From assembly GCA_015064895.1 (NCBI GenBank), contig SVRI01000003.1, positions 62,001 through 126,000 of the forward strand: a DNA stretch of 64,000 nucleotides, read 5' to 3'. Under the pieces are notes generated by a model. The model did not search any database. It had not been told where the DNA came from and was given only the letters and a program-made list of their open reading frames with translations. Positions 5,166-47,530 of the stretch are shown here, one piece after another (the first letter of the stretch is position 1; each line of letters starts with the position of its first letter). The translations under genes were made by a program, and so were the position numbers. This stretch comes from Oscillospiraceae bacterium. GTDB lineage: Bacteria; Bacillota; Clostridia; Oscillospirales; CAG-382.

Positions 5166-7088
5166 GTGATAATACTCAGTGCCTCAGACGTAACTCTGTC
5201 CTTCGGTACGGACGTGATACTTGACAGAGTAAGTCTCGGCATACAGGAAAACGATAAAATAGGAATAGTGGGCGTAAACGGCGCGGGCAAGAGTCTTTTT
5301 ATGAAGATTCTTGCAGGACGTCAGGAGCAGAGCGAGGGTGATGTGTTCCTTGCCAAGGACACAAACATCGGCTATCTCGAGCAGAATACAGGGCTTGAAT
5401 CCGACGGTGAAATGTTTGAGGAAATGTGTAACGCATTCCCGAAGCTTCTTGACATGGAAAAACGTCTTGCCGAACTTGAAAGGCTTATGAACGAAGCCCA
5501 TGACGACGATAAGCATATGAGCCTTGCCAAAGAATATACGACCCTCGAAGATAATTTCAAGCGTGAGGGCGGATATGAGTTCAGAAGCAGAATTTCAAGT
5601 ATGCTCACAGGTCTCGGCTTTGAAAAGGACACCCATACAAGAAGAATCAATACCCTTTCGGGCGGTCAGAAGACAAGGCTTGCCATAGCACGTCTTCTTT
5701 TGTCGGAGCCGGACATACTTATGCTTGACGAGCCTACCAACCACCTTGACATTGAGACGGTTGAATGGCTTGAAGAATACTTAAAGAACTATAAAAAGTG
5801 CCTCATTGTTATTTCCCATGACAGATATTTTCTCGACAAGGTAACAAAAAAGACCTTTGAAATTGAGAATAGGGAAGGCAAGCTCTACAATACTTCTTAT
5901 ACCGACTATGTAAAGCAAAAGGAAATCGACAGAAAAATAGATCAGAAGCACTATGACCTTCAGCAGAAGGAGATAGCAAGACTTGAGTCTTTCATTGAAA
6001 ATCAGCGCAGATGGAACAGAGAACGTAATATTATTGCCGCAGAAAGCAGAATGAAGGCTATCGACCGCATGGAAAAACTGGAAAAGCCCAAGGATTTGCC
6101 GTCTAATATACGCTTTCGGTTTCAGACGAGCGACAGCGGCTTGTGTCCCGATAAAATGCTTGAGGTTACGGGACTTACAAAGGGATTTCCGGGTAAGCAG
6201 CTTTTTGAAAATGTGTCTTTCCTGCTTCACGGCAGAGATAAAATGTTTATTCTCGGTCAGAACGGGGTGGGTAAGTCCACAATGCTAAAAATTCTCTGCG
6301 GAAAAATCGGTCAGGACTTCGGTACGTTTGAATATGCCCGCGGTCTTGCCATAGGTTACTATGATCAGGAGCATCAGGGACTTGATAACAGCAATACCGT
6401 CATTGATGAGCTGTGGGACTGCTTTCCCAATAAGACACAGACCGAAATCCGAAGTGTGCTTGCAGGCTTTCTCTTTACAAGCGAGGACGTGTTCAAGAAG
6501 ATTGACGTGCTGTCGGGCGGTGAAAAGGCAAGACTTACCTTTGCAAAGCTCATGCTTGAAAAGAGCGACCTTCTGATACTTGACGAACCTACAAACCACC
6601 TGGATGCACCCAGCCGTGAAGTGCTGGAGCAGGCACTTGTCGAATACGACGGCACCGTGCTTTGCGTATCCCATGACAGATATTTTGTCAAAAAACTTGC
6701 CAGCCGTATTTTCGAGATGAGAGAAGACGGTACATTTGACTTCAAGGGCGGATATGAGGACTTCTGTTCATATAAGGAAAAGAGAAAGTCTGCGGATTCT
6801 TCGTCGGATTCGGAAAAGACGGGCGTAACCAATTCACAAATGGACTATGAAAAGGCAAAGGAACTCAAAAACAGAAGAAAGAGTGCCGAAAAGAAACTTG
6901 CCGAAACCGAAAAACGCATCGAAGAAACAGAAGCGGCAATTGAAGAAAACCAAAAAAAGCAGGAGGAGTTTGCCTCTGATTATGAGCAGATTTCCAAACT
7001 CTTTTCCGAGCTTTCCGAGCTTAATGACCGTCTTGAAAAGCTGTACGAGACCTGGGACGAACTTCAGTCGGTTTTGAGCGAAAATTAA
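5166..7088 (+). CDS. ABC-F family ATP-binding protein
   Basis: 640 aa; duplicated ABC domains with LSGGQ/LSGGE, DEPTNHLD twice, no TM segments, C-terminal coiled coil. Confidence 0.95.
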   Translation: MIILSASDVTLSFGTDVILDRVSLGIQENDKIGIVGVNGAGKSLFMKILAGRQEQSEGDVFLAKDTNIGYLEQNTGLESDGEMFEEMCNAFPKLLDMEKRLAELERLMNEAHDDDKHMSLAKEYTTLEDNFKREGGYEFRSRISSMLTGLGFEKDTHTRRINTLSGGQKTRLAIARLLLSEPDILMLDEPTNHLDIETVEWLEEYLKNYKKCLIVISHDRYFLDKVTKKTFEIENREGKLYNTSYTDYVKQKEIDRKIDQKHYDLQQKEIARLESFIENQRRWNRERNIIAAESRMKAIDRMEKLEKPKDLPSNIRFRFQTSDSGLCPDKMLEVTGLTKGFPGKQLFENVSFLLHGRDKMFILGQNGVGKSTMLKILCGKIGQDFGTFEYARGLAIGYYDQEHQGLDNSNTVIDELWDCFPNKTQTEIRSVLAGFLFTSEDVFKKIDVLSGGEKARLTFAKLMLEKSDLLILDEPTNHLDAPSREVLEQALVEYDGTVLCVSHDRYFVKKLASRIFEMREDGTFDFKGGYEDFCSYKEKRKSADSSSDSEKTGVTNSQMDYEKAKELKNRRKSAEKKLAETEKRIEETEAAIEENQKKQEEFASDYEQISKLFSELSELNDRLEKLYETWDELQSVLSEN

Positions 7089-7510: not shown

Positions 7511-7539
7511 TTGACAAACTTTCTTTGCATTGATATACT
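7511..7539 (+). promoter_or_regulatory. sigma-70 type promoter for carbohydrate ABC operon
   Basis: TTGACA (7511-7516), 17-nt spacer, TATACT (7534-7539). Confidence 0.65.
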
Positions 7540-7709
7540 ATGTTCATGTAATTGGGTGCTTTTTGCCCTTTTTTAAGTGTTGTTTGTGTGAATTCGCGGT
7601 GAAGATATTGCGAAAATGTCTCGTCATGCGATGACGCATTTATAATATGAAGAAAAGTGCGGGAAGAACCTTGTACCGAGCAATACTCATTCAGAGGAGG
7701 AAATTAGCA

Positions 7710-10700
7710 ATGATGATTGCAAAAAACAAAAGCAGACTTGTTGTTCTCGTACTTATTGCAAGCATGCTTTTACAAGCGTTTGGTTCAGTTGCTGTCTATG
7801 GTGCTGCGTTATCAGAGCAGGAATATGCAACCAAGCAAAACAACTCGGAAACCGAGAATTCACGTGATGCAATGAAAGAGCTTATGGTTTCTACCGCTTA
7901 CAGTGAATATCTCGTTCTTTACGATGAAATTCCCGATGCTAAGGAAAGCATTCGTATAGAAGCCGAAAATTATGTCAGAGAAGAAGATGCAGGTCAGCAG
8001 AGCCAGAATGCAGCAAGCCAGAGTGCTTATGCAGAGGTAAGAATTGTTGACGGCATGTATCTTGACACACCCGGTTCAGGAAAGGTTTCTTTTAAGTTCA
8101 CTGCTCCCGAAACTGCAATGTATACAATCAAATTAAGATATTTGCCTTTGACGGGAGACGGCGGCTGGATAGTTTCCGAAAACGGTGCTAACTCCACCGA
8201 TGACGACAGCCACAACTCCAACATTGAACGTATCCTTCTTATCGATGACCTTGTTCCTTTCAAGGAAGCACGTACACTTAATTTCTCGCGTACATGGGTT
8301 GACGATTATGCTAACGGCTTTGATAAAGACGGAAGATATAAGTTCAACCGCGACATCAATATGAATGAAATGCGTCCTATCAAGGTTGAAGACCCTGAAT
8401 GGACAGAAACATACCTTTATGATTCCGAAACCTTCTATGAAGATCCTCTTAAGTTCTATTTTGAAAAGGGCGAACACACCATCACTCTTGATGCTGCAAG
8501 TGAACCCTTGAGACTTGACTGGATTGAAGTTGGTTATGCTGAGCCCCTCAAGTCTTATAAGGACTACCTTGAAGAACACAAGGATGCTCCGACTCCCAAG
8601 GCACAGCCTATTATTGTTCACGCAGAAACACCTTCCGCTACAAGCGAACAGGTTATCTACGCAATGAACGACAGAACCAGCGGTATTACATATCCTCAGG
8701 ATCCCGCCCAGTCACTTCTCAACACCCTCGGCGGTAACGGCGGTGACAAATGGAAGAATCCCGGTCAGTGGGTAAGATACGAGGTTCTTATTACAGAATC
8801 CGGTTGGTACGATATCGTTCCCAGATTCAAGCAGACTATCAACCAGGGTCTTTTCTCGTCAAGAGCAGTTAAGATTGACAATGAGTATCCCTTTGAGGAA
8901 GCAAGAGGTCTTCAGTTCAAGTACGCTGATGACTGGCAGGTGGCTCCTCTTAATGACGGTAAGACAAACTTCAAGTTCTATCTTGAAGCTAGCGAAAAGC
9001 CGCATGTAATTGAATTTAAGGCAGTACTCGGCGACATGGCTGACCTTCTTAACGAAATTGAAGGTATTCAGACAAGACTTAACGACTACTACAGACAGAT
9101 ACTTATGATCACAGGTTCTGAACCTGATGAATTTACCGACTACGAATTTTCAAAGCTCATCCCGGGTGTTCTTACAGGTATGAAGACCGAAAAGCAGAAC
9201 CTCCAGAACGTTTCGCTGAGACTTGAAAAGAAGATCGGTACAAAGGGCGAAAATACGGTAATCCTCGACAGAATCGCATTCCTTCTCGGAGAAATGAGCG
9301 GTGATGAAACAAAGATTGCCGCAAACCTCGGTAACTTCAAGAGCTATATCGGCTCACTCGGTACATGGTTACTCAGCACTAAAGCTCAGCCCCTTCAGCT
9401 TGACAGTATATATGTTCAGCCTACAGGAACAAAGCTTCCCAAGGCAAATGCAAACTTCTTCCAGTCCATGGGACACGAGCTCAGCTCGTTTGCAATGTCC
9501 TTCTTCACCGACTATAACTCAATCGGTGCTTCTCAGAAGATTGAAGACGACGACCCCAATGCGGTAGAAGTATGGATTACAACAGGCCGTGACCAGGCGA
9601 CAATCATGCGTCAGCTGGTTGACGGCAGCTTCAACAGCGAAGATATTGCTGTAAACTTAAAGCTGATTGCGGCAGGTACACTTCTTCCTGCAACACTTGC
9701 AGGCGTAGGTCCTGACGTATCAATGGATGCCGACCCCAACGGTTACGGTATCAGAAACGCAGTTATTCCTCTTAACTACTTTGAAGCAGAAACAGTAGGA
9801 AAGATTAATGACAGAGTGTCAATAAAGAATAAACAGCCCGTTCTTTCCTATTCCGATGTTAAGCAGGCTTACTTCAGCAACGAAGACGGTCAGGTAATTG
9901 AAGAACTCTTTGTTCCTCTTACAATCCTCGACCCCGACAGAGTTGAGTATGTTGATAAGGATAACCCCGATAAGGGATATAAGGTTGTTGACGGTGTGGT
10001 AAGAGACGGTAGAGTTGCTTACGGTCTTCCTTACACAATCGACTTCCCGATGCTCTTCTACAGAAAGGATATCTTCGTAGAGCTTGGCCTCGACGTTCCC
10101 GAAACATGGGATCAGGTAGAAACAACAATCAGAGCACTTTCCGAAAAGCAGATGGAAATGGGCTTCTCTCAGGCTATGACTCAGATTTACATGTATCAGT
10201 CAGGTCATGAGTGGTTCAAGTCTGCAAGGGATTATGCACAGTATTATCCTAACGGTGAAGTAAGCGAACGTGAATACTTGAGAACGGTAGGTATCGAATC
10301 CAATCTCGGCTCCAACGGTGCACTTGATGCGTTCCAGAGAATGACCGAATGGTTTACACTCTACGGCGAACCCGTATCCTATGACTTTGCAAACAGATTC
10401 AGAACAGGTGAAATGCCTATTGCAATCGCAAATTACACAACCTATAACCAGCTTAAGGTATTTGCTCCTGAAATTGCAGGTCTTTGGGAATTTGTTCAGC
10501 TTCCCGGTGTTGAAAGAACCGTTGAAGTAATTAACGAAGAAACAGGCGAAACAGAAACAAAAACATATATCGACCATTCCACACCCGGTACTCCTCAGGC
10601 GGTAATGATGATGAAGGATGCTGCGGATGACATCAAGGACGGTCAGGATATCACAGAATCCAAGAAGGCACAGAATGCATGGGCATTCCTCCAGTGGTGG

Positions 10701-11072
10701 GTAAGCACAGATACACAGGTTAAGTTCGGTCAGGAACAGGTAGCCCTCATGGGTACCGCCGCGAAGTACAACACAGCAAACATCGACGCACTTCTCGGTC
10801 AGTCCTGGACAGCACAGGAAAAGAAAAACCTCGAGCAGCAGTTTGCATCACTCAAGGGAACTCCGATGTCCCCCGGTAACTACATCGTTGCAAGATATAC
10901 AAACTTCGCATTCTATAATGTTGTAAACGACGGTGAAGTTGCAGCGGAAGCATTACGCGGTTATGTAGATGACATTGACCACGAGCTTTCAAGAAAACGT
11001 GCAGAGTATGGCTTCATTACAAAGGAAGACTACTTTAAGGAAGATCGCTTTAAAGGCGCGAACTTGGGATAG
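7710..11072 (+). CDS. extracellular carbohydrate ABC transporter solute-binding protein with N-terminal CBM6/35-like regions
   Basis: Track ORF starts at 7647, but RBS gaggagg precedes ATG at 7710; signal peptide; C-terminal family-1 SBP-like region (LPYTIDFPMLFYRKDIFVELGLDVPETWDQ); two N-terminal beta-rich regions of type 'IRIEAENY ... LDWIEVGYA'. Confidence 0.9.
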   Translation: MMIAKNKSRLVVLVLIASMLLQAFGSVAVYGAALSEQEYATKQNNSETENSRDAMKELMVSTAYSEYLVLYDEIPDAKESIRIEAENYVREEDAGQQSQNAASQSAYAEVRIVDGMYLDTPGSGKVSFKFTAPETAMYTIKLRYLPLTGDGGWIVSENGANSTDDDSHNSNIERILLIDDLVPFKEARTLNFSRTWVDDYANGFDKDGRYKFNRDINMNEMRPIKVEDPEWTETYLYDSETFYEDPLKFYFEKGEHTITLDAASEPLRLDWIEVGYAEPLKSYKDYLEEHKDAPTPKAQPIIVHAETPSATSEQVIYAMNDRTSGITYPQDPAQSLLNTLGGNGGDKWKNPGQWVRYEVLITESGWYDIVPRFKQTINQGLFSSRAVKIDNEYPFEEARGLQFKYADDWQVAPLNDGKTNFKFYLEASEKPHVIEFKAVLGDMADLLNEIEGIQTRLNDYYRQILMITGSEPDEFTDYEFSKLIPGVLTGMKTEKQNLQNVSLRLEKKIGTKGENTVILDRIAFLLGEMSGDETKIAANLGNFKSYIGSLGTWLLSTKAQPLQLDSIYVQPTGTKLPKANANFFQSMGHELSSFAMSFFTDYNSIGASQKIEDDDPNAVEVWITTGRDQATIMRQLVDGSFNSEDIAVNLKLIAAGTLLPATLAGVGPDVSMDADPNGYGIRNAVIPLNYFEAETVGKINDRVSIKNKQPVLSYSDVKQAYFSNEDGQVIEELFVPLTILDPDRVEYVDKDNPDKGYKVVDGVVRDGRVAYGLPYTIDFPMLFYRKDIFVELGLDVPETWDQVETTIRALSEKQMEMGFSQAMTQIYMYQSGHEWFKSARDYAQYYPNGEVSEREYLRTVGIESNLGSNGALDAFQRMTEWFTLYGEPVSYDFANRFRTGEMPIAIANYTTYNQLKVFAPEIAGLWEFVQLPGVERTVEVINEETGETETKTYIDHSTPGTPQAVMMMKDAADDIKDGQDITESKKAQNAWAFLQWWVSTDTQVKFGQEQVALMGTAAKYNTANIDALLGQSWTAQEKKNLEQQFASLKGTPMSPGNYIVARYTNFAFYNVVNDGEVAAEALRGYVDDIDHELSRKRAEYGFITKEDYFKEDRFKGANLG

Positions 11073-11117
11073 AAGAGTAAATCCCATCTAAGATAATCGA
11101 TTTAAGGAGTGAAATAA

Positions 11118-12074
11118 ATGTCAGAAAAAGCTGTCACAAAGCAACAGGCTGCACCGAAGCTTAGAAAAGACATGACCAAATGGGAATGGACTCTCCGCGA
11201 AATGAAGGTTAATAAGGTTGGTTACGTAATGGTAGCTCCCTACTATATCGTGTTCCTTCTTTTCACAGTCGTTCCGGTATTCGTGTCGCTGTTCCTCAGC
11301 TTCACACAGTTTAATATGCTTGAAGTACCCCAATGGGTGGGTGTAGATAACTACATAAGACTCTTACTTGATGACGATACATTCCTTCTTGCTGTTGAAA
11401 ACACCCTTGTTTTCGCAACAATGACAGGTCCTGTATCCTATCTTCTCAGCCTTATGTTTGCGTGGTTCATCAACGAACTTACGCCAAAAATCCGTGCCGT
11501 AGTAACACTTATCTTCTATGCGCCCAGTATCTCCGGCCAGGTATATCTTATCTGGCAGACACTGTTCTCCTCTGACCAGTACGGCTGGGTAAACGGTACA
11601 CTCATGAAACTCGGTGTTATAAACAGCCCGATTTTGTGGTTCCAGGATACCAATTATATTATGACACTTTGTATCGTCGTTGCCCTCTGGACATCACTCG
11701 GTACATCCTTCCTTTCCTTCATCGCCGGCTTCCAGGTAGTTGATAAGTCCCTCTACGAAGCAGCCAGCGTTGACGGCGTAAGAAACAGATGGCAGGAACT
11801 CTGGTACGTAACACTTCCCGTAATGAAGAACCAGATGATGTTCGGTGCTATCATGGCGATTACATCGTCCTTCGGTTTCGGCGCAATTGTTACAGCACTC
11901 TGCGGATTCCCGTCCGTTGACTACTGCGCTCATACCATCATGCATCACCTTGATGACTATGGTGGACAGCGTTGGGAAGTAGGTTACGCATCTGCGATTG
12001 CAACAATCCTGTTTGCAATCATGATCGGTTCTAACCTGCTTGTAAATAAATTACTGTCGAAGGTAGGTAAATGA
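11118..12074 (+). CDS. sugar ABC transporter permease (MalF-type)
   Basis: 318 aa; six TM; EAA loop YEAASVDGVRNRWQELWYVTLPVM. Confidence 0.93.
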   Translation: MSEKAVTKQQAAPKLRKDMTKWEWTLREMKVNKVGYVMVAPYYIVFLLFTVVPVFVSLFLSFTQFNMLEVPQWVGVDNYIRLLLDDDTFLLAVENTLVFATMTGPVSYLLSLMFAWFINELTPKIRAVVTLIFYAPSISGQVYLIWQTLFSSDQYGWVNGTLMKLGVINSPILWFQDTNYIMTLCIVVALWTSLGTSFLSFIAGFQVVDKSLYEAASVDGVRNRWQELWYVTLPVMKNQMMFGAIMAITSSFGFGAIVTALCGFPSVDYCAHTIMHHLDDYGGQRWEVGYASAIATILFAIMIGSNLLVNKLLSKVGK

Positions 12075-12943
12075 TGATGAAATTGCCAAAGATTAAAAGA
12101 CGTTCATTTAACCGTTCCGTCGGCGGTGACGTGGGTATCAACTTAATGCTCTTTATTTTCGGTGCATTCATGTTCCTCCCCATGATTTATGCGGTTTCCC
12201 AGTCATTAAAACCTCTTGACGAACTGTGGATGTTCCCCCCGAGATTCTTTGTTATCAATCCTACATTCAAGAACTTCGGCGAACTCTTCAGACTCATGAG
12301 CGAATCCTGGGTTCCCTTCTCAAGATACATATTCAATACAGCATTTGTTTCCATCGCGGGTACATTCGGTCACTTGTTCCTCGCATCCATGGCGGCATAT
12401 GCTATGACAAAGATTAACTTCCCCGGACGTAAGGGTATGTTCATGCTTGTATACTATTCCCTTATGTTTAACTCAACAGTTACATCTCTTTCCAACTTCA
12501 TCATCATGTCTGCACTCGGTTGGATCGATACATATTGGTCTCTTATCATTCCTGCCTTCGGTTATACCCTCGGCTTCTACCTCATGAGACAGTTTATCGA
12601 AACAACAGTTCCGGATTCCGTACTTGAATCTGCAAGACTTGACGGTGCAAAGGAACTTACAATCTACTGGAAGATAGTAATGCCTATGGTTAAGCCTGCT
12701 TGGCTCACACTTATCGTTTACTCCTTCCAGGGTCTCTGGAATAGCGGTACTTCCATTTATATCTATTCCGAACAGCTCAAGACATTCAACTACGCAATCC
12801 AGCAGATTCTTGCCGGCGGTATCACACGAAGCGGTGCGGCAGCAGCTTCAACGGTTATCATGATGATCGTTCCTATCTCCGTATTCGTTGTTACTCAGAG
12901 TAACATTATCGAAACAATGGCAAGCTCGGGTATGAAAGACTAA
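12071..12943 (+). CDS. carbohydrate ABC transporter permease (MalG-type)
   Basis: 290 aa; EAA loop ESARLDGAKELTIYWKIVMPMVKPAW; ATG overlaps upstream stop. Confidence 0.93.
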   Translation: MMMKLPKIKRRSFNRSVGGDVGINLMLFIFGAFMFLPMIYAVSQSLKPLDELWMFPPRFFVINPTFKNFGELFRLMSESWVPFSRYIFNTAFVSIAGTFGHLFLASMAAYAMTKINFPGRKGMFMLVYYSLMFNSTVTSLSNFIIMSALGWIDTYWSLIIPAFGYTLGFYLMRQFIETTVPDSVLESARLDGAKELTIYWKIVMPMVKPAWLTLIVYSFQGLWNSGTSIYIYSEQLKTFNYAIQQILAGGITRSGAAAASTVIMMIVPISVFVVTQSNIIETMASSGMKD

Positions 12944-12957
12944 GGAGGATACAGAAA

Positions 12958-15258
12958 ATGAAAAAATCAATAAAAATTATCCTCTTGACTCTTTGCTTTG
13001 TCTTGCTTCTCGGTATGGCAGCAGTAAATGCTATCATTCCTTATACTACATATACATATGATATCGACGGTAACTACGTTGAATCACCCCATGCATATGT
13101 ACCTTATGAAGTAATTACATCTTCAACTCTCGGTATCGGCGACTCACCTATTACCGACCCTCAGGACTTCTGTACAGGACGTATCTCCCAGATTGGTGAT
13201 GATGCTCAGAAGTACTTCTACTGGGACGGAAAGATTTATATTTCCGACACCAATTCTTCGATTGAAAATCCCGTTCCTAAGGTTGTTATTGCTGAATATG
13301 ATGAAGTCCAGTCCGGTTTTAAATATATAGCTGAAATTTCAACCTTCGTAAATGAATGGGGTGTTCCCGACAGAATCACTTCACCCTCGGGTCTTTACGC
13401 AATCGACAATCTTCTCTTTGTCTGCGATATTGACTCTGCAAGAATCCTTGTTTTTGCTACCGATGATGTAAATGTTGACGGTGTTGAATACAAGCTCGGT
13501 GACTTCGTAAAAACAATTGAAGAACCCGAAAGCGAAGTAATCAGTGACAACCACGTTTACAGACCTCGTGCTGTTGCTGCAAATACTCTTAAGGATAAAG
13601 ACGGTGTTATTTCGTTAGGTTATATGTACGTTGTCGGTGAATCTACTCACCAGGGTGTTATTTCCATCAACGGTGAAGGCGAATTTTCAGGCTTTATCGG
13701 CACTCAGTCCAACACTCTTACATTCTTCGATATGCTCTGGAGAAAGCTTCAGACAGAAGAACAGAGAAATAAGTCTGTAAAGAACGTATCAACATCCTTC
13801 AATAACGTTAATATCAACGAAAAGGGCTTTGTGTACGCAACAACAGATGCCATCAATGATGATGACCTCTTCAAGGCTATTCAGGCAAAGTCCATTACAA
13901 GTGACGTTTCTCCCGTTAAGATGCTTAACCCTAACGGTCAGGACGTAATGAAGCGTTCGGGCTTCTTCCCGCCTGTAGGTGAAATTACATTTACACAGCA
14001 GGCAACTCCCCAGTATTCAATCACAGGTCCTTCAAAGGTAGTTGACGTTGGTCTAGGTCCTGAAGGTACATGGTCCATCATCGACGAAAAGAGACAGAAG
14101 GTATTTACATATGATGAAGACGGTAACCTTCTCTTTGCATTCGGTGATAAGGGTTCGCAGCTCGGTAATATCTCAATGGTAGAAGCTGTAGACTATGCTT
14201 ACAGCGACGATGATGCAAACTCTGCAAACTACCTTATGATCCTTGACAGTACAAATGATGCCATTACTGTTTATAAGAGAACAGAATACGGTGATGTACT
14301 TGTTCAGGCTCTCAGAAATCAGAGAGACAGAAAGTTCGACGAAGCCGAAAAGGACTGGAGAGAAATCCTCCAGAGAAACTCCAACTTCGACATGTCTTAC
14401 ATCGGTATCGGTAAGAGCCTTTACCGTCAGGGTAAGTATGAAGAAGCAATGGCTCAGTTCAAGTTTGCATATGATACGGAAAACTACTCTGAAGCATGGC
14501 AGCAGGTAAGAAAAGAATGGGTTGAAAAGTATGTAATTGTTATTCCCATTGTTATTATCGCATTCCTTCTTCTTGTTTCCTTCATATTCAAGTATGCAAA
14601 GAAGGTAAATGATGCAGGTCTTGCTTTGAGAAAGAAGCGTACACTCAAGGAAGAATTTATGTATGGCTTCCATGTAATGTTCCATCCGTTTGACGGCTTC
14701 TGGGATATCAAGCATGAATACAGAGCTTCCACTAAGGGTGCTACAACAATTCTTATCCTTACTATTCTTTCATTTATATACTATTCAATCGGTCAGGCAT
14801 ACATAATCAGTCCTTATCCTACCGATGTAAGTGTAGTAATGATGTTTGCATCCATTCTTCTTCCCGTATTCCTCTGGGTAATTTCAAACTGGTGCTTTAC
14901 AACACTGTTTGACGGCGAAGGAAGCCTTAAAGACATTTATATTGCAACATGTTATGCTTTGTTCCCGCTTCCTCCGTTCCTCATTCTTACAACACTTCTT
15001 TCCAATATCGTAACAGTAGATGAAGCAGGTCTTCTTACACTTGCTCTGGGCGTATCCCTCTTCTGGTGCGGCTTCCTGCTGTTCTTCGGTATGCAGGTAA
15101 TTCATGACTATACATTGTTCAAGAACATTCTTACAACTCTTGCAACAATTATAGGTATGGTGTTCATTATGTTCCTCGCAGTTCTCTTTACAAGCCTTGT
15201 AACGAAGATTGTTGGATTCGTATATAACATAATCATAGAACTTTCATATAGAGTATAA
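12958..15258 (+). CDS. membrane protein with extracytoplasmic NHL-like beta-propeller region, TPR-like segment and C-terminal Yip1-like membrane domain
   Basis: 766 aa; N-terminal signal/TM, repeated blade-like 'GLYAIDNLLFVCDIDSARILVF' segments, TPR 'IGKSLYRQGKYEEAMAQFKFAYDTENYSEAWQQ', multi-TM C-terminus; RBS aggagg. Confidence 0.75.
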   Translation: MKKSIKIILLTLCFVLLLGMAAVNAIIPYTTYTYDIDGNYVESPHAYVPYEVITSSTLGIGDSPITDPQDFCTGRISQIGDDAQKYFYWDGKIYISDTNSSIENPVPKVVIAEYDEVQSGFKYIAEISTFVNEWGVPDRITSPSGLYAIDNLLFVCDIDSARILVFATDDVNVDGVEYKLGDFVKTIEEPESEVISDNHVYRPRAVAANTLKDKDGVISLGYMYVVGESTHQGVISINGEGEFSGFIGTQSNTLTFFDMLWRKLQTEEQRNKSVKNVSTSFNNVNINEKGFVYATTDAINDDDLFKAIQAKSITSDVSPVKMLNPNGQDVMKRSGFFPPVGEITFTQQATPQYSITGPSKVVDVGLGPEGTWSIIDEKRQKVFTYDEDGNLLFAFGDKGSQLGNISMVEAVDYAYSDDDANSANYLMILDSTNDAITVYKRTEYGDVLVQALRNQRDRKFDEAEKDWREILQRNSNFDMSYIGIGKSLYRQGKYEEAMAQFKFAYDTENYSEAWQQVRKEWVEKYVIVIPIVIIAFLLLVSFIFKYAKKVNDAGLALRKKRTLKEEFMYGFHVMFHPFDGFWDIKHEYRASTKGATTILILTILSFIYYSIGQAYIISPYPTDVSVVMMFASILLPVFLWVISNWCFTTLFDGEGSLKDIYIATCYALFPLPPFLILTTLLSNIVTVDEAGLLTLALGVSLFWCGFLLFFGMQVIHDYTLFKNILTTLATIIGMVFIMFLAVLFTSLVTKIVGFVYNIIIELSYRV

Positions 15259-15272
15259 GAAAGGAAGGGTAA

Positions 15273-17993
15273 TTGAAAATGAAAAATATTAAATTAGTAA
15301 GTTACATTCTTTCCGTTCTTATGCTTGTTGTAGCTCTCGGAGTTTTTGCATCGGCATCCGATGACGGCTTTGCACTTGAGACGGATTATCTCACACAGTC
15401 GTATAAGAGCCCTGAAGAAAAGCTCGCAACAATGGGTATCTATGACGAGGGTACCAAGGAAAGAATTCCTAACTATAAAAATGATAAGTATGAGATCTGG
15501 GCACATGAAGAAACCGGTGAAGTCGGTATTAAGGATCTCACAACCGGACAGATTATTCTTACAAACCCCTATGATATAAGTACATCCAAAGCAGATGATA
15601 CTGTAAAACAGAAGCTTTTATCACAGATCGTTCTCCAGTATAAAGACTCCACCGGCTCTGTTGTTGAATTTAACTCCTATGCACATGCCGCTCTTAACGG
15701 TAAGGTGGTTGGCGGTGAAAGAATCAACCAGATCAGAGTATTTAATACAAGAAACGGTGTCAGAGTTGAATATACTCTCGGTAAGGAACAGGCAAAGTAC
15801 GTAGTTCCCAAGCAGATTGAACAGCTTAGCTTTATTGAAAATCTTGTTAATGTATGGGAAAACAAATCTTCAAGAGAATATGCTCAGTTCCTTGCTTACT
15901 ATGACCTCAAGGACCCCAACGACAAGACTCTTGCAAAAACAGTTCTTACATCCATGAAGGAACAGTTCCCTGCTACAGAAAAGGGTTTTGCAATCTACGT
16001 TCTTGACCCCGGTGTATCCAACAGAGAACTTGAAATGCTCTCGGGTTATATTGAAAACAATACCGACTACAGTGCAGAACAGATGGCTGAAGACTATGAG
16101 CTTATCGACTATGTTGATACATCTGCGGCTCCCGCTATCTTCAGATTTGCAATTGAATATTCGGTAGATGAATACGGTGTTAAGATTTCAATGCCTGCCA
16201 ACAGTATTTCGTATGACTCTTCCAGCTATACACTTACAAACGTAAAGCTTCTTCCTTATCTTGGTGCCGGTAATAATCAGAGTGAAGGCTTCACATTCCT
16301 TCCCGACGGTTCCGGTACAATTACAAGATTTGAAGATATAAAGAATAAGCAGTTTACACTTACAGGTAAGCTCTACGGTAGAGACTACGCATATCACACA
16401 GTTACCGGCAGCAACCAGGAAACAATGAGACTTCCCGTAATCGGTGTTCTCGAAAAGAAGAGAGCTCCCGAGTCCTTGCAGGTAAAGGGTGAGGATGAAA
16501 AGCTTATTGAACAGGGCTTCGTTGCATATTTTGTAGATGGTGACTCACTTGTTGAACTCAGCTCCGACCATGGCGGCGGTGTTCACGGTTACAGCTCTGT
16601 TTATGCTACATTCTATCCTAAGGCAAAGGATACATATGCTCTTACCGGTATTTCCGCATCCGGTGATGCCGAATGGTCCGTAACATGTGAAAGGAAGTAT
16701 ATTGGCGATTATGCCATGAGAATTTTCCCTGTATACGGTGAAGGTGCTGACTACACCGATATGGCGGCAACTATCAGAGGATATCTTGAAGATACAGGCG
16801 TTCTTACTAAGCTTGATCCTGAAGCAGAGACTTCCGAAGATACAGCACTTTACATTGAAAACTTCGGTACAATCAAAACTGATGAAAAGTTTATCGGTTT
16901 CCCCGTAAAGCGTCAGACAACTCTTACAACATTTGATCAGACAGAAGGTATGATTACCGACCTTAATAAGGCAGGCATCAACAATATCAATGTTAAGCTT
17001 ACCGGTTGGTATAACGGCGGTATGGAGCATACTGCACCTTCCTCACTCAGTGTTCCTTCCAAGCTTGGCGGAGCAAAGGGACTTAAGGAACTTGCAAAGT
17101 TTGCAAAGAGCAAGAACGTAGGTCTCTATCCCGACCTTGATTATACATACGTTGAAAACTTCAAGATGTTCGACGGTATTTCCAAAAAGAAGGATACAGC
17201 AAAGACAATTGACGGACGTAATGCCGTGCACAGAGTATACAATGCACTTTATCAGGGCTTTGAATCCGATGATAAGGCACTTATCAGCGCAGGTTCTCTC
17301 CAGAAGCTTTATAAGAAGGTTCAGAAAGAGTACGAAGGCTACGGTGCCGGCGGTATATCTGTAGCTTCACTTGGTTACGACCTTAACTCAGACTTCAATG
17401 AAGATTATGTAATCAACCGTGATGATGCCGAACTTCTTACAGAAGAATTTCTTGCAACTCTTAAGCAGAGAAATGGCAGTGTAATGGTTGACGGCGGTAA
17501 CGCATATGCTCTTGGATATGCCGATCATATTCTCAGTGTGCCGCTCGATAGCAGTATGAACATCAACACAAGTGAATCCATTCCCTTCATGGGCATGGTA
17601 CTTCACGGATATACAGAGTTTGCAGGAACACCTATCAACCTTGACGGTGACTATGAATACAGTATGCTCAAGGCTATTGAAAACGGTGCAAACCTCTACT
17701 TCCTTGTATCTAAGGAAAACACATCTGAACTCAAGGCATTCCCTGAATTCAGTAAGTATTATGCTATAAGCTATGACAACTGGAAAAACGATATCGTTGA
17801 TACTTACACAACATTCAATGAAGCAATGAAGGGTGTTAAGTATTCAGTTATTTCCGAACACGAAAAGATAGGTACAAGACTTGTAAGAGTCAAGTACGAT
17901 AACGGAACAGAATTTATTCTTAACTACAATACTCATTCTGTTACAACCGAGGACGGTACCGAGGTTGAAGCAATGAGCTTTGCGGTTAGATAG
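15273..17993 (+). CDS. DUF5696-like large secreted protein (candidate glycosidase-like fold)
   Basis: 906 aa with type I signal peptide; located between ABC permease pairs; TIM-barrel-like segments; family name from memory. Confidence 0.7.
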   Translation: MKMKNIKLVSYILSVLMLVVALGVFASASDDGFALETDYLTQSYKSPEEKLATMGIYDEGTKERIPNYKNDKYEIWAHEETGEVGIKDLTTGQIILTNPYDISTSKADDTVKQKLLSQIVLQYKDSTGSVVEFNSYAHAALNGKVVGGERINQIRVFNTRNGVRVEYTLGKEQAKYVVPKQIEQLSFIENLVNVWENKSSREYAQFLAYYDLKDPNDKTLAKTVLTSMKEQFPATEKGFAIYVLDPGVSNRELEMLSGYIENNTDYSAEQMAEDYELIDYVDTSAAPAIFRFAIEYSVDEYGVKISMPANSISYDSSSYTLTNVKLLPYLGAGNNQSEGFTFLPDGSGTITRFEDIKNKQFTLTGKLYGRDYAYHTVTGSNQETMRLPVIGVLEKKRAPESLQVKGEDEKLIEQGFVAYFVDGDSLVELSSDHGGGVHGYSSVYATFYPKAKDTYALTGISASGDAEWSVTCERKYIGDYAMRIFPVYGEGADYTDMAATIRGYLEDTGVLTKLDPEAETSEDTALYIENFGTIKTDEKFIGFPVKRQTTLTTFDQTEGMITDLNKAGINNINVKLTGWYNGGMEHTAPSSLSVPSKLGGAKGLKELAKFAKSKNVGLYPDLDYTYVENFKMFDGISKKKDTAKTIDGRNAVHRVYNALYQGFESDDKALISAGSLQKLYKKVQKEYEGYGAGGISVASLGYDLNSDFNEDYVINRDDAELLTEEFLATLKQRNGSVMVDGGNAYALGYADHILSVPLDSSMNINTSESIPFMGMVLHGYTEFAGTPINLDGDYEYSMLKAIENGANLYFLVSKENTSELKAFPEFSKYYAISYDNWKNDIVDTYTTFNEAMKGVKYSVISEHEKIGTRLVRVKYDNGTEFILNYNTHSVTTEDGTEVEAMSFAVR

Positions 17994-18009
17994 AAAGGGG
18001 TGCTGGTAA

Positions 18010-19008
18010 ATGAATAATACAGCTAATGCTAAACAGTCAAGAAATGTTCAAAGCGTGCCTGTAAACACAGCGCCCGCCAGAAAAAAGAAGCCGGCATCAC
18101 TTGATGCAAAGAAGGCAAGAGCCGGATGGTTCTTTGTACTTCCCTTTGTAATCGGTTTCGTAATTCTTTATATTCCCATGCTTTATAAGTCTGTTATGTT
18201 CTCGTTCAGCCAGATTAAGGTTCTTGAAAACGGTGGTTACGAACTTATTTCTATAGGGTTTGATAACTACACCGAAGCGCTTTTCTCTGATGCAAACTTT
18301 GTAAGAACACTTACGGAAAGCTTAAAGCAGCTCGTACTTGATGTACCTGCAATCGTAATTTTCTCGCTCTTCATGGCAATCATGCTTAATCAGAAGATGA
18401 TCGGCCGTGCGGTGTTCAGAGCAATCTTCTTTATCCCTGTTATTCTTACAACAGGTCTTATCGACCAGATAGACCAGGGCAATATGGCTATGGATTACAT
18501 GAACAACGGCGGCGGTATTGATACCGGCGCAGGCAGCGAAGAAGGTCTTATCAATTCAATGGACGTAACAAGTCTGTTAGGCAATATGGCGGTAGGGTCA
18601 GAGCTGGTTGAGTACGTTGTAAACCTGGTTAATGACATTTTCAATATTGTTAACCGTTCGGGTGTACAGATGCTTATATTCCTCTCGGGTCTTCAGTCAA
18701 TTTCACCTGCCATCTACGAATCCTGTAAGATGGACGGTGCTTCCGGATGGGAAACATTCTGGAAGGTTACATTCCCCATGATAAGCCCCATGATTCTTGT
18801 AAATGCAATTTATACCGTAATCGACTCCTTTACGTCTGAATCAAACGCCGTAATGAAGTATATCAATACGGTATATAACACAGGTACTGTCCGCCCCAGA
18901 GAAATCAGTAGTGCAATGTCCTGGATGTATTTCCTTCTTGTACTTGTAATGCTCGGACTTGTAGCACTTATACTCTCGGCGTTCGTATTCTACCAAAGAA
19001 AAGACTAA
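18010..19008 (+). CDS. sugar ABC transporter permease with extended inserted loop
   Basis: 332 aa; EAA loop YESCKMDGASGWETFWKVTFPMISP; acidic/Gly insertion between predicted TM3 and EAA loop. Confidence 0.9.
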   Translation: MNNTANAKQSRNVQSVPVNTAPARKKKPASLDAKKARAGWFFVLPFVIGFVILYIPMLYKSVMFSFSQIKVLENGGYELISIGFDNYTEALFSDANFVRTLTESLKQLVLDVPAIVIFSLFMAIMLNQKMIGRAVFRAIFFIPVILTTGLIDQIDQGNMAMDYMNNGGGIDTGAGSEEGLINSMDVTSLLGNMAVGSELVEYVVNLVNDIFNIVNRSGVQMLIFLSGLQSISPAIYESCKMDGASGWETFWKVTFPMISPMILVNAIYTVIDSFTSESNAVMKYINTVYNTGTVRPREISSAMSWMYFLLVLVMLGLVALILSAFVFYQRKD

Positions 19009-19028
19009 GGAAAGGAGGATAATATATT

Positions 19029-20069
19029 ATGAACAACAATGCTACCAATAACACAACCGATGCTCAGCTCAGAAAAATCTCGAGAAAAGAGATGAAGGTT
19101 GACTTTGAAGGCAAGCTCAGCTTCAAGGAAAGATTCCGTCTTAAGTACCTTTCCTTCCGGTTCCTCGGTGTCATGATTTATAAGTTATTCAGACTTATCT
19201 TGCTTGTAGGTATTTCCTATATCATTATCTATCCTTTCATAACAAAGATTTTGTCCTCCTTTATGAGCACAAATGACCTTGTTGACGTAACGGTAAAGCT
19301 TATCCCGAGAAACCCCACTCTTGACCAGTGGAAGTACATAATTATTGAAAACAAGTATTTCCTTGCACTTTTCAATACAGCAAGAATTTCACTTCTTTGC
19401 GGTTTCTTCCAGACACTCATTTGTGCGATTATCGGTTACGGATTTGCAAAGTTTAAATTCAAAGGCAGAAACATTCTCTTCTTTTGCGTAATTATTACAA
19501 TGCTTATCCCTCATGACACGCTTCTTCTTGCGATGTTCATGCACTTCAGATATTTTGATATCTACGGTCTCTACGGACTCATTACAGGTGCTCAGGGTAT
19601 TAACCTTATTAACACCGAATGGCCTTTGTATCTGCTTTCTCTTACGGGTCTTGCATTTAAGAACGGTCTTTATATCTTTATTTTCAGACAGTTCTATAAG
19701 GGCGTTCCCGATGAACTTGAAGAAGCTGCATACATTGACGGAACAGGTGTGTTCCAGACATTCTTCAGAATTATCCTTCCTCTTTCCGTTCCTATGATGA
19801 CAACAGTATTCATGTTCTCATTCTCATGGCAGTGGACCGATACATTCTACACAGCATCTCCGTTCTTTACAACAAACGATATCCATCTTCTTCCCAATAT
19901 TGTTGAGGTTCCTCAGAGCCTTAAGATGGAATTCGCTGCAAGCGGTCTTTGGGAATCCATTATTATGAATACCTGCGGTCTGCTTGTTATTATACCATTG
20001 TTCATTATCTTCCTCTTTGCACAGAGATCCTTCGTTGAAGGTATTGAACGTTCCGGTATCGTTGGTTAA
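19029..20069 (+). CDS. carbohydrate ABC transporter permease
   Basis: 346 aa; EAA loop EEAAYIDGTGVFQTFFRIILPLSVPMM; RBS aaaggagg. Confidence 0.92.
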   Translation: MNNNATNNTTDAQLRKISRKEMKVDFEGKLSFKERFRLKYLSFRFLGVMIYKLFRLILLVGISYIIIYPFITKILSSFMSTNDLVDVTVKLIPRNPTLDQWKYIIIENKYFLALFNTARISLLCGFFQTLICAIIGYGFAKFKFKGRNILFFCVIITMLIPHDTLLLAMFMHFRYFDIYGLYGLITGAQGINLINTEWPLYLLSLTGLAFKNGLYIFIFRQFYKGVPDELEEAAYIDGTGVFQTFFRIILPLSVPMMTTVFMFSFSWQWTDTFYTASPFFTTNDIHLLPNIVEVPQSLKMEFAASGLWESIIMNTCGLLVIIPLFIIFLFAQRSFVEGIERSGIVG

Positions 20070-20084
20070 TCCAATAAACACTTT

Positions 20085-20114
20085 AAAGCTCCCGTCTTTG
20101 ACGGGAGTTTTTTT
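20085..20114 (+). terminator. rho-independent terminator of ABC operon
   Basis: CTCCCGTC (20089-20096) ttt GACGGGAG (20100-20107) + T7. Confidence 0.93.
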
Positions 20115-37138: not shown

Positions 37139-39034
37139 ATGCGTATGGCTACAAAAAAGGAAAACCTTGCACAGTATTATTTTCACCAGGGCACAAATTT
37201 CACAGCCTATGATTATATGGGTGCTCACTTTGACGAAAAGAAAAATGCATATACCTTCAGGACATGGGCTCCGAATGCCGATAAGGTTTATCTTGCCGCC
37301 GATTTCAATGAGTGGAAGAAAACACATGCCATGACAAGAGAAAGTGAAGGCGGTGTGTGGAGCATAGATGTGCCGCCGGAATGTTTTAGTGACAGTGATA
37401 TTTATAAATACATTATCGAACGTGACGGAAAATGCGAATATAAGGCAGACCCGTATGCTTTCTATGCCGAGCTTCCTCCAAAAACCGCATCAAGAATATA
37501 TAATATCGACGAGTATGAGTGGAACGATGCCGCGTGGCTGAAATTCCGCAAAAAGAACGTCAAAGAACCCTATGGTTTGCCGATGAATATTTACGAGGTT
37601 CATGCAGGCTCTTGGAAACTCAAGGAAGACGGAAGCTTTTATAATTACAGAGAGCTTGCAATAGAGCTTGCCTCCTATGTCAAGAGTATGGGTTATACAC
37701 ACATAGAGCTGATGCCCGTAATGGAGCATCCGTTTGACGGTTCGTGGGGATATCAGGTGACGGGATATTTTGCACCGACCTCACGTTACGGAAACCCCGA
37801 TGATTTCAAATTCTTTGTAGACTATATGCATTCTGCGGGAATCGGTGTAATCCTCGACTGGGTACCTGCCCATTTTCCCAAAGACGGACACGGACTCTAC
37901 GAATTTGACGGCGGTCCTTTGTATGAGTATCAGGGCTGGGACAGAATGGAAAGCCGTGACTGGGGTACAAGACGCTTTGACGTGGGCAGAAACGAGGTGC
38001 AGTCATTCCTCATATCAAATGCCCTTTTCTGGCTCAGAGAATACCATGTTGACGGACTTCGTGTAGATGCTGTGGCATCCATGCTTTACCTTGACTTTGG
38101 CAGAGAAGCCGGTGAATGGTGTCCCAATGAAGACGGAAGCAATCATTGTAAAGAGGCGGTTGCTTTCTTCCAAAAGCTTTCGCGGGTTATACGTGATACC
38201 TGCCCGGACACGCTTCTCATTGCCGAGGAATCCACAAGCTGGAAGGATGTTACAAAACCCGAAGGACTCGGATTTACACATAAGTGGAACATGGGCTGGA
38301 TGAACGATGTTTTAAAGTATATCGAAACAGACCCCGTGTTCAGGAAATATCATCACGAAAAGCTGACATTCTCTCTTATGTACGCCTTTAACGAAAACTT
38401 TATCCTGCCCATTTCCCACGATGAAGTGGTACACGGTAAAAAGTCGCTTCTTGATAAGGCGGTGGGGGACTACTGGCAGAAGTTTGCATCCACAAGGGCA
38501 TTTCTTACGTATATGATGACACATCCCGGAAAGAAACTGCACTTTATGGGCAATGAAATAGGTCAGTTCAGGGAATGGGACTACAAGGGAAGTATAGAAT
38601 GGTTCCTTCTCGATTACGAATCCCATTCCAAATTCAAGGATTTTTCGAGGGATCTGAATTTTGTATATCTTGAAAACAAATCCATGTGGGAGGTTGAAAA
38701 CTCCTGGTCGGGATTTCAGTGGATAGATGCAGATAACAGAGACTGGAGTATGCTTTCCTATGTGAGATATGACGCAAAGGGCAATGCGGATGTTGTCATA
38801 GTGAATCTTACACCCGTCGGAAGATACGGATATATCTGCGGAGTTCCTTATGACGGTGTTTACGAAGAACTGATAAACAGCGACGATTATAAATACGGCG
38901 GCACGGGTATGGTAAATAATGAACCGATTCCCGTAAGATATGAAGGCTGTCACAATATGCCCTATTCAATACAGCTTGATATCGGACCGTATGGCTCGGT
39001 TGTTCTTAAAAATATCAGGAAAAAGGCAAAATAA
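37139..39034 (+). CDS. glgB: 1,4-alpha-glucan branching enzyme
   Basis: 631 aa; ELMPVMEHPFDGSWGYQVTGYFAPTSRYG, DGLRVDAVASMLY, AEESTSW, LPISHDEVVHGKKSL. Confidence 0.97.
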   Translation: MRMATKKENLAQYYFHQGTNFTAYDYMGAHFDEKKNAYTFRTWAPNADKVYLAADFNEWKKTHAMTRESEGGVWSIDVPPECFSDSDIYKYIIERDGKCEYKADPYAFYAELPPKTASRIYNIDEYEWNDAAWLKFRKKNVKEPYGLPMNIYEVHAGSWKLKEDGSFYNYRELAIELASYVKSMGYTHIELMPVMEHPFDGSWGYQVTGYFAPTSRYGNPDDFKFFVDYMHSAGIGVILDWVPAHFPKDGHGLYEFDGGPLYEYQGWDRMESRDWGTRRFDVGRNEVQSFLISNALFWLREYHVDGLRVDAVASMLYLDFGREAGEWCPNEDGSNHCKEAVAFFQKLSRVIRDTCPDTLLIAEESTSWKDVTKPEGLGFTHKWNMGWMNDVLKYIETDPVFRKYHHEKLTFSLMYAFNENFILPISHDEVVHGKKSLLDKAVGDYWQKFASTRAFLTYMMTHPGKKLHFMGNEIGQFREWDYKGSIEWFLLDYESHSKFKDFSRDLNFVYLENKSMWEVENSWSGFQWIDADNRDWSMLSYVRYDAKGNADVVIVNLTPVGRYGYICGVPYDGVYEELINSDDYKYGGTGMVNNEPIPVRYEGCHNMPYSIQLDIGPYGSVVLKNIRKKAK

Positions 39035-45641: not shown

Positions 45642-47530
45642 TGTTTCCGCATCTTTTTGACAGCAGCGAAGTTCAAAAATTCATAAAGCTTAAAAAATCT
45701 GCCAAAGGTAAATCCGCCTCCCGTCGAGGTGCATTTTCATGTTCTGAAAAACTGAAAATAGAGCTTGAAATCACAAGAAAACTCGGTGTCACCAAGGTGT
45801 ATTTGTGCCTGGATGACGATAATGAAGGCACAGAACATGAGATTGAAATGCCGGTTGAGGAAACCCTCGGAAGCATAGACTGTTATTCGGCAACTCTTGG
45901 CTTTGAAAGCCTTTGTCCCGACGGCGACGGTCTGTTTTTCTGGAAGATAAAGCTTTTTGTCGGAAACCGTGCTTTTTATTCCCATTCCATAAATAACGTT
46001 GATTATTGCTTTTCCGACCTTGAGGACACAAAGCCCTTCAGACTTTTAGTGTATAATAAGGATTTTTCCACACCCGACTGGGCAAAGAGCGGTGTCATGT
46101 ATCAGATTTTTGTTGACAGATTTTGTAAGGGAAACAAAAAAGTACCTGTAAGAAAAGACTGCAAAATCAACCATGACTGGTATGACGGCATCCCTGAATT
46201 TGCCGCAAAAAACGGCGACCCTTTAGAAAATAATATGTTCTTCGGAGGCACTCTTTGGGGCGTTATCGAAAAGCTCGACTACCTCAAAGAACTCGGCGTA
46301 AATATACTCTATTTCTGTCCCATATTCAAGGCTTTTTCAAACCATAAGTACGACACGGGTGACTATGAAACTGTTGACGAAATGTTCGGCGGTGATAAGG
46401 CGTTTTCAGAGCTTGTAAAAGAAGCAAAGAAACGTGATATGAGAATTATTCTTGACGGTGTTTTCAACCATACGGGCGACGACAGCAAGTACTTCAACCG
46501 CTACGGTAAGTATAAGAATGTCGGTGCGTATCAGTCGCAAAAGAGTAAGTACTTTGATTGGTATAAGTTTGAGGAATTTCCCGACAAATACGAAGCGTGG
46601 TGGGGCATTGAAATTTTGCCGAGACTTATGGGTGATAATCCCAAGGTCAAAGACTATTTCCTGTCTGAGAAGGGTATTGTCAGAAAATGGATAAAAAGCG
46701 GAATTGACGGCTGGAGACTTGACGTTGCCGATGAGCTTTCCGAATCTTTCCTCGAAGGTCTGAATAAGGCAGCAAAGCAAGAAAAAACGGATGCACTTGT
46801 TATCGGTGAAGTCTGGGAAAACGCTGCAGATAAGGTGTCCTACGGCAAAAGACGTAAATACTTCCGCGGCAAACAGCTTGATTCTGTTATGAACTATCCC
46901 GTAAAGTACGCAATTATAGACTTTATCAAGGATAAAAACGCAGAAAAGTTCTATAATTCCGTAACCGAAATATACTCAAGCTACCCGCAGTTTTGTTCTG
47001 ATGTTCTTATGAACCTTGTGGGAAGCCACGATACCGAGAGAATACTTACAATCCTCGGCGGTGAGTCTCCCGAAGGTAAGACCAATGCAGAACTTTCGAC
47101 CAAGAAAATGACACCCGAACAGCTACGTGACGGTATACAAAAACTCAAAGTTGCATCTGTTTTGCAGTTTACGCTACCCGGTATGCCCATGATTTACTAC
47201 GGCGATGAGGCGGGAATGGAAGGGTATCACGACCCGTTCTGCAGAAAGCCTTATCCGTGGGGCAGGGAAAACAAGGAACTTCTCAGCCACTATACAAGGC
47301 TATGCCATATAAAGAGAGAAGAAACATCGCTTCATTCTTCACCCCTCGAATTTGTCTGCCATAGTGACGGACTTGCGGTTTACAAAAGAGGCAGTCTTTT
47401 GATTCTCGTAAATACCTCGGATGAGGAAAAAACATTTGAGGTTAAATGCAAGTACACAGAGCTTCTTCTGGGAAAACCCGAAAAGGATGTTGTGACGCTT
47501 CCTGCCATGACTGCAAAAATACTCAAATAA
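45641..47530 (+). CDS. glycoside hydrolase family 13 (alpha-amylase/neopullulanase-like)
   Basis: 629 aa; DGVFNHTG, GWRLDVADE, IGEVWE, VGSHDTERI. Confidence 0.94.
   Translation: MFPHLFDSSEVQKFIKLKKSAKGKSASRRGAFSCSEKLKIELEITRKLGVTKVYLCLDDDNEGTEHEIEMPVEETLGSIDCYSATLGFESLCPDGDGLFFWKIKLFVGNRAFYSHSINNVDYCFSDLEDTKPFRLLVYNKDFSTPDWAKSGVMYQIFVDRFCKGNKKVPVRKDCKINHDWYDGIPEFAAKNGDPLENNMFFGGTLWGVIEKLDYLKELGVNILYFCPIFKAFSNHKYDTGDYETVDEMFGGDKAFSELVKEAKKRDMRIILDGVFNHTGDDSKYFNRYGKYKNVGAYQSQKSKYFDWYKFEEFPDKYEAWWGIEILPRLMGDNPKVKDYFLSEKGIVRKWIKSGIDGWRLDVADELSESFLEGLNKAAKQEKTDALVIGEVWENAADKVSYGKRRKYFRGKQLDSVMNYPVKYAIIDFIKDKNAEKFYNSVTEIYSSYPQFCSDVLMNLVGSHDTERILTILGGESPEGKTNAELSTKKMTPEQLRDGIQKLKVASVLQFTLPGMPMIYYGDEAGMEGYHDPFCRKPYPWGRENKELLSHYTRLCHIKREETSLHSSPLEFVCHSDGLAVYKRGSLLILVNTSDEEKTFEVKCKYTELLLGKPEKDVVTLPAMTAKILK

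Follow-up and report, generated by a model that had tools for sequence, protein, structure and literature searches.

How might a bacterium run a sugar uptake locus that carries two pairs of permeases, one substrate-binding protein (SBP), no transporter ATPase gene and two large accessory proteins? This question is raised by a seven-gene operon at positions 7710-20069 of the window, the 64,000-nucleotide stretch analysed here, which corresponds to C26:62001-126000 of an Oscillospiraceae genome of 2.28 Mb (40 contigs, 98% complete). The best explanation, with a probability of about 0.7, is that the operon encodes two coupled CUT1 glycan importers that share one ATPase and are fed by several SBPs. 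It would be an oligosaccharide uptake unit in which two envelope proteins accompany two ABC importers of the CUT1 type. With no other CUT1-type importer detected in the genome, this unit would serve as a hub.

The seven genes all lie on the + strand, -4 to 45 nt apart, and every start is preceded by a plausible ribosome-binding site. A large, XloE-like SBP (7710-11072), delimited by profile, domain and start analyses, is followed by permeases P1 (11118-12074; MalF/UgpA-like, XloF-like) and P2 (12071-12943; MalG/UgpE-like, XloG-like), by protein X (12958-15258), recognised from Pfam and profile matches as an NHL/TPR/Yip1 protein, by a DUF5696 protein (15273-17993), and by permeases P3 (18010-19008; MalF-like, AxoF-like) and P4 (19029-20069; MalG-like, AxoG-like). 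Open reading frames, Pfam, profiles and direct reading of the sequence bear out the initial annotation, which had described seven co-oriented genes of these families, starting at 7710 and ending at a terminator. The permeases match PF00528 (BPD_transp_1) with E-values of 1e-9, 2e-11, 2e-9 and 1e-12 for P1 to P4 respectively, and the EAA motif is kept in all four permease families (114 homologues). The EAA loop is the part of a permease that contacts the ATPase; in view of its conservation, a loss of permease-ATPase coupling was considered and rejected. Paired BPD_transp_1 permeases with an EAA loop are thus present, as in CUT1 ABC sugar importers. The large SBP comprises an N-terminal signal or transmembrane segment, two CBM35-like beta-sandwich regions, a coiled region and a C-terminal SBP domain. 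Taken alone, the window protein matched no Pfam family, and the SBP_bac_1-type component of a CUT1 importer is recognised through the family profile instead: 25 of the 26 aligned homologues match SBP_bac_1/8, some match CBM_35 or jelly-roll models, and the profile matches SBP structures with E-values down to 5e-28. This CBM-bearing protein would deliver its cargo to P1-P2.

The gene set is a conserved system and not a chance association. Counted above the Pfam cut-off in drawn genome samples, DUF5696 is present in 39 of 399 genomes across the Bacillota (~10%), in 104 of 197 genomes of the window's order and in all 13 genomes drawn from its family, and yet two of the seven proteins of this widespread module are without demonstrated function. 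Loci were taken from the DNA around DUF5696 matches and from 80 named loci on genome contigs, mainly of Paenibacillus and Cohnella but also of Lachnospiraceae, some Bacillaceae and one Spirochaetaceae metagenome-assembled genome. Since no part of the whole-family alignment was sufficiently conserved for scanning contigs, a narrower alignment was used, and the named loci are therefore biased to Paenibacillaceae-like relatives. In total, 134 loci contain a DUF5696 gene, and 106 of them extend at least 7.5 kb on both sides. The Yip1 protein, DUF5696, P3 and P4 are contiguous in all 106, which establishes the conserved association proposed in the initial annotation and leaves no sign of random co-occurrence. 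The large SBP, P1 and P2 are attached in 96 of them (91 in front, 5 behind), and in nine the large SBP is absent nearby with the other block still together. In addition, the seven genes occur in order in 40 of 40 further loci from the window's order. Median identity is highest for P1 and P2 (59%) and, of the seven, lowest for DUF5696 (35%). The copy labelled Spirochaetaceae, on contig SKVA01000107.1, suggests either a transfer out of the Bacillota or a misbinning. One 1.8 Mb genome of the window's order has six DUF5696 matches, against the usual single copy in the window's family.

The initial annotation regarded this system as functionally undescribed, and here it has to be corrected. The same gene order, xloEFG-X-GH129-axoFGE-xynF onward, was published as the xylan-induced operon of the xylan degradation locus (XDL) of the thermophile Caldicellulosiruptor (Anaerocellum) bescii, with regulation assigned to XynR and AraR (PMC8579813, Table 3). 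By gene order, the Yip1-type protein corresponds to the "X" of that locus and DUF5696 to its "GH129", and both operons read SBP-P1-P2-X-GH129/DUF5696-P3-P4, again with no ATPase gene. The link was reached through this order and the GH43 partner; DUF5696 itself gave no literature match. Several Caldicellulosiruptor-like complete genomes show the XDL order, with a large SBP of ~950-990 aa. Behind the seven genes they carry a small SBP and a GH43 protein, which at 1347-1370 aa is as long as XynF of C. saccharolyticus (Csac_2411; PMC5658599). The gene order and this XynF-like GH43 protein argue strongly that these genomes are Caldicellulosiruptor. In one of the Caldicellulosiruptor-like genomes, the P2 gene is split by an oppositely oriented 442-aa open reading frame, an insertion-like disruption. 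Unlike the XDL, where the small SBP AxoE and xylanases follow P4 directly, the window shows no carbohydrate-active enzyme (CAZyme) gene adjoining the operon, and the small SBPs of its genome lie at a remote site. The locus is therefore partly known. Within the window's lineage, it looks like a free-standing hub that has no CAZymes beside it and whose small SBPs are dispersed.

The authors of the XDL study name two separate CUT1 importers, AxoFGE and XloEFG, with X and GH129 between them (PMC8579813). This published annotation, together with the fact that each permease pair retains its own EAA loops, would suit a simpler view in which two ordinary CUT1 importers merely share an operon and X and DUF5696 are passengers with jobs of their own, such as a glycosidase outside the cell and an envelope protein of general function. 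We consider this unlikely. Passengers would be lost or shuffled, whereas X and P3-P4 accompany DUF5696 in every one of the 106 complete contexts, the gene order is nearly invariant, and the four-gene block persists in the nine contexts that lack the large SBP. Neither X nor DUF5696 was ever separated from permeases in the loci examined.

Coupled glycan importers, the preferred explanation, agree with the genes found around the module in other taxa. These include GH43, GH10, GH30, GH26-CBM35, GH95, GH29, GH106, GH38 and GH35 enzymes, with LacI or AraC/histidine kinase regulators, a variety that points to glycan uptake, with different substrates for different copies. The adjacent CAZyme and regulator that characterise Gram-positive polysaccharide utilisation loci are thus found at many homologous loci, and not in the window. 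The uptake part of the function first proposed, surface glycan sensing and uptake, is the one favoured here.

Which ATPase could drive the permeases? The genome encodes a single MalK-type ATPase (with a MalK OB-fold domain), an orphan located on contig C19 between the S-adenosylmethionine synthetase and phosphoglycerate mutase genes, which scores 497 bits against NF008653 of the UgpC/MsmX subfamily. A MalK/MsmX-type ATPase, as CUT1 importers use, is therefore available, and the earlier statement that the locus lacks a nucleotide-binding subunit and would need a shared one holds. Eight BPD permeases were detected in the genome: P1-P4, PotB and PotC with their own PotA, and two of amino-acid type with their own ATPases. 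The CUT1-type permeases detected are consequently confined to P1-P4. They have no evident motor other than the orphan ATPase, which would power both pairs. In C. bescii, deletion of msmK impairs growth on xylan and other poly- and oligosaccharides (PMC8579813). The window's system resembles MsmK/MsmX-dependent CUT1 importers in combining permease pairs devoid of their own ATPase with an orphan UgpC/MsmX-type one. It differs from them by its two permease pairs and two conserved accessory proteins, and by a genome in which one transporter operon coexists with at least six SBPs.

The count of SBPs deserves a closer look, as the locus had been described as having one SBP for two permease pairs. 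This is correct at the locus and fails genome-wide. In 104 of the 134 loci, a second SBP of ~460 aa and SBP_bac_1/8 type (median identity 26%) immediately adjoins the module on one side. No small SBP is found at either end in the window, where lexA follows P4. The window's genome nevertheless gives five strong matches to the small-SBP profile, all in tandem at C23:113780-121772, behind the phosphofructokinase gene pfkA and with no permease nearby. These five proteins have 468-612 aa and 73-87% mutual identity, and a simple scan finds a clear lipobox in three. Small SBPs were likewise found in 20 of 21 genomes of the family, with 10-20 copies in some; such counts are upper estimates, since the profile may also catch SBPs of other sugar importers, and the case for permease-less small SBPs is cleaner for the window's own genome than for its relatives. 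At twenty small-SBP sites (~16 kb each) in 13 of these genomes, 58 small SBPs were counted, of which 50 have a lipobox, whereas homologues of P1-P4 were absent. Housekeeping genes predominate around these SBPs, and a few genes of the pectin-lyase-fold and Gfo/Idh/MocA types occur as well. In a few loci elsewhere, arrays of 4-5 small SBPs stand directly behind P4.

By analogy with these loci, P3-P4 would most likely be served by small lipoprotein SBPs, supplied here by the remote five-gene array. It is doubtful, though worth weighing, that the five proteins are instead receptors or storage proteins, or that they serve a permease type missed by PF00528. Their position on another contig beside pfkA, with no permease near, is what such a view would predict. 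They belong, however, to the family that adjoins the operon in most loci and forms arrays right behind P4 in some, and the genome shows no further CUT1-type permease for them to serve.

A broader version of the coupled-importer explanation can be put forward tentatively, at somewhat less than even odds: one dual-permease complex, including the propeller/TPR/Yip1 protein as organiser and the GH129-fold protein as a lid or trimming protein, would take cargo from interchangeable lipoprotein SBPs encoded genome-wide in permease-less arrays, with one shared ATPase. If this were true, specificity would evolve by duplication of SBPs and not by the gain of new transporters, a count limited to permease-adjacent SBPs would miss much of the sugar-uptake repertoire, and the substrate range could be read from the orphan SBP arrays.

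Protein X has an N-terminal transmembrane segment, an extracytoplasmic NHL beta-propeller and TPR part, a further transmembrane segment at ~520-550 and a C-terminal Yip1 domain (PF04893, 2e-14; 54 bits against a curated cut-off of 28.6). NHL is matched by 26 of 27 family members, which substantiates the beta-propeller/TPR/Yip1 assignment of the initial annotation. In some taxa X is a single gene; in many it consists of two adjacent genes (~490 and ~210 aa), with the break between the TPR and Yip1 parts. Searches of the available literature found no paper on the function of protein X or of DUF5696, and nothing relevant on Yip1 combined with sugar transporters, so that the two accessory proteins are still, as first stated, without a demonstrated role. 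Protein X may use its extracytoplasmic propeller and membrane domain to anchor or organise the complex.

Propeller/TPR proteins are frequently binding mediators, and histidine kinases and AraC-type regulators stand beside many copies of the module. Both points would fit a glycan-sensing assembly rather than an importer, in which glycans bound by the SBPs and the propeller would give rise to a signal via contacts between Yip1 and the permeases. This appears very improbable: all four permeases retain the ATPase-coupling EAA loop, the operon encodes no signalling domain, and no sugar regulator stands next to the copy in the window. The sensing half of the function first proposed thus receives no direct support.

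The DUF5696 protein, first annotated only as "DUF5696-like", is a true member of the family, as its match to PF18952 at 7e-154 demonstrates. It combines a signal or transmembrane segment with an extracytoplasmic domain of predicted GH129 fold. Searched with the family profile, the structures of the GH129 enzymes DagB (5opq, 8e-12) and NagBb (5wzn, 4e-8) are matched. An AlphaFold (AF2) model built from a 53-sequence alignment, with a mean pLDDT of 86 (a single-sequence model with pLDDT 32 was discarded), retrieved the same structures with Foldseek (5opq, E 3e-31; 5wzn, ~2e-24), with TM 0.70-0.74 over the target. A PF11308 profile gave no match in 250 genomes and likewise none in control genomes, and is uninformative on GH129. 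In the preferred explanation, this protein would trim or hold incoming glycans.

The trimming half of that role is opposed by an alternative to which we give nearly an even chance, namely that the DUF5696 protein uses its GH129 fold to hold glycans or to form a lid, without catalysis, and is not an active glycosidase. The fold is shared with NagBb and DagB/ZgGH129 at 11-13% identity; unlike them, the window protein is membrane-anchored and tied to permeases, and approximate mapping reveals no evident catalytic Asp/Glu pair at the corresponding strand ends. Asp435 of NagBb is the equivalent of Asp486 of DagB, whose activity needs further carboxylates (PMC5698469). Strand counting, without residue-by-residue superposition, gives an approximate correspondence with Asp435 of NagBb and with Asp486/Glu517 of DagB; it places Ser699 and Asn743 of the window protein at the ends of beta4 and beta5. 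Across the family, residue 699 is Asp in 64% of members and residue 743 is Asn in 98%. A structural part would also suit an obligate association with permeases of varied substrate. On the other side, besides the approximate mapping itself, other carboxylates are well conserved: Asp345, Asp371 and Glu803 (98%), Asp707 (93%), and Asp767, which is kept in 90% of the family but is Ser in the window. The C. bescii operon is genetically tractable, which makes the functions of X and of the GH129-fold protein open to direct testing.

Several points weigh against the explanation of two coupled importers. The remote SBPs are assigned to P3-P4 by a process of elimination and by comparison with the neighbouring genes of other loci. 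A divergent permease could escape the Pfam model, and the assembly is in 40 contigs. Correlated evolutionary distances among the seven genes (mostly ~0.9 or more; 0.72-0.78 for P1) speak for the explanation, being expected of a unit inherited together, but in part they reflect shared species history. Finally, the genes next to the operon, both in the window and in two annotated relatives of its order, include neither a CAZyme nor a sugar regulator; they are ABC-F, lexA, thiI, nifS and polyamine genes, which give no pointer to the substrate in this lineage.

Upstream of the operon, on the + strand, a promoter TTGACA-17-TATACT with an extended -10 TG (7511-7539) matches the consensus at 11 of 12 positions and is kept in two other species of the genus. 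Directly after the expected transcription start, a terminator-like hairpin GGGTGCTTTTTGCCC followed by T6 (7554-7574, + strand) is strictly conserved in the three species and could possibly act as a leader element or attenuator. A longer reading frame of the SBP, starting at 7647, was rejected because indels disrupt the 7647-7710 frame in two species of the genus; GGAGG and ATGATGATT are conserved, which leaves 7710 as the start. Upstream matches to a catabolite-repression (cre) site were weak and were dismissed. The intrinsic terminator CTCCCGTC-TTT-GACGGGAG-T7 (20089-20114, + strand), an 8-bp perfect hairpin with a T-run, was identified by direct reading of the sequence and was not among the results of the consensus scan. 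The upstream ABC gene at 5166-7088, a candidate for the missing ATPase, proved to be an ABC-F translation factor and was rejected; the same operon lies between this gene and lexA in two species of the window's genus. Elsewhere in the window, two GH13-type alpha-amylase-family genes (~37673-38728 and 46103-47260), the genome's only GH13 matches, possibly take part in alpha-glucan metabolism.

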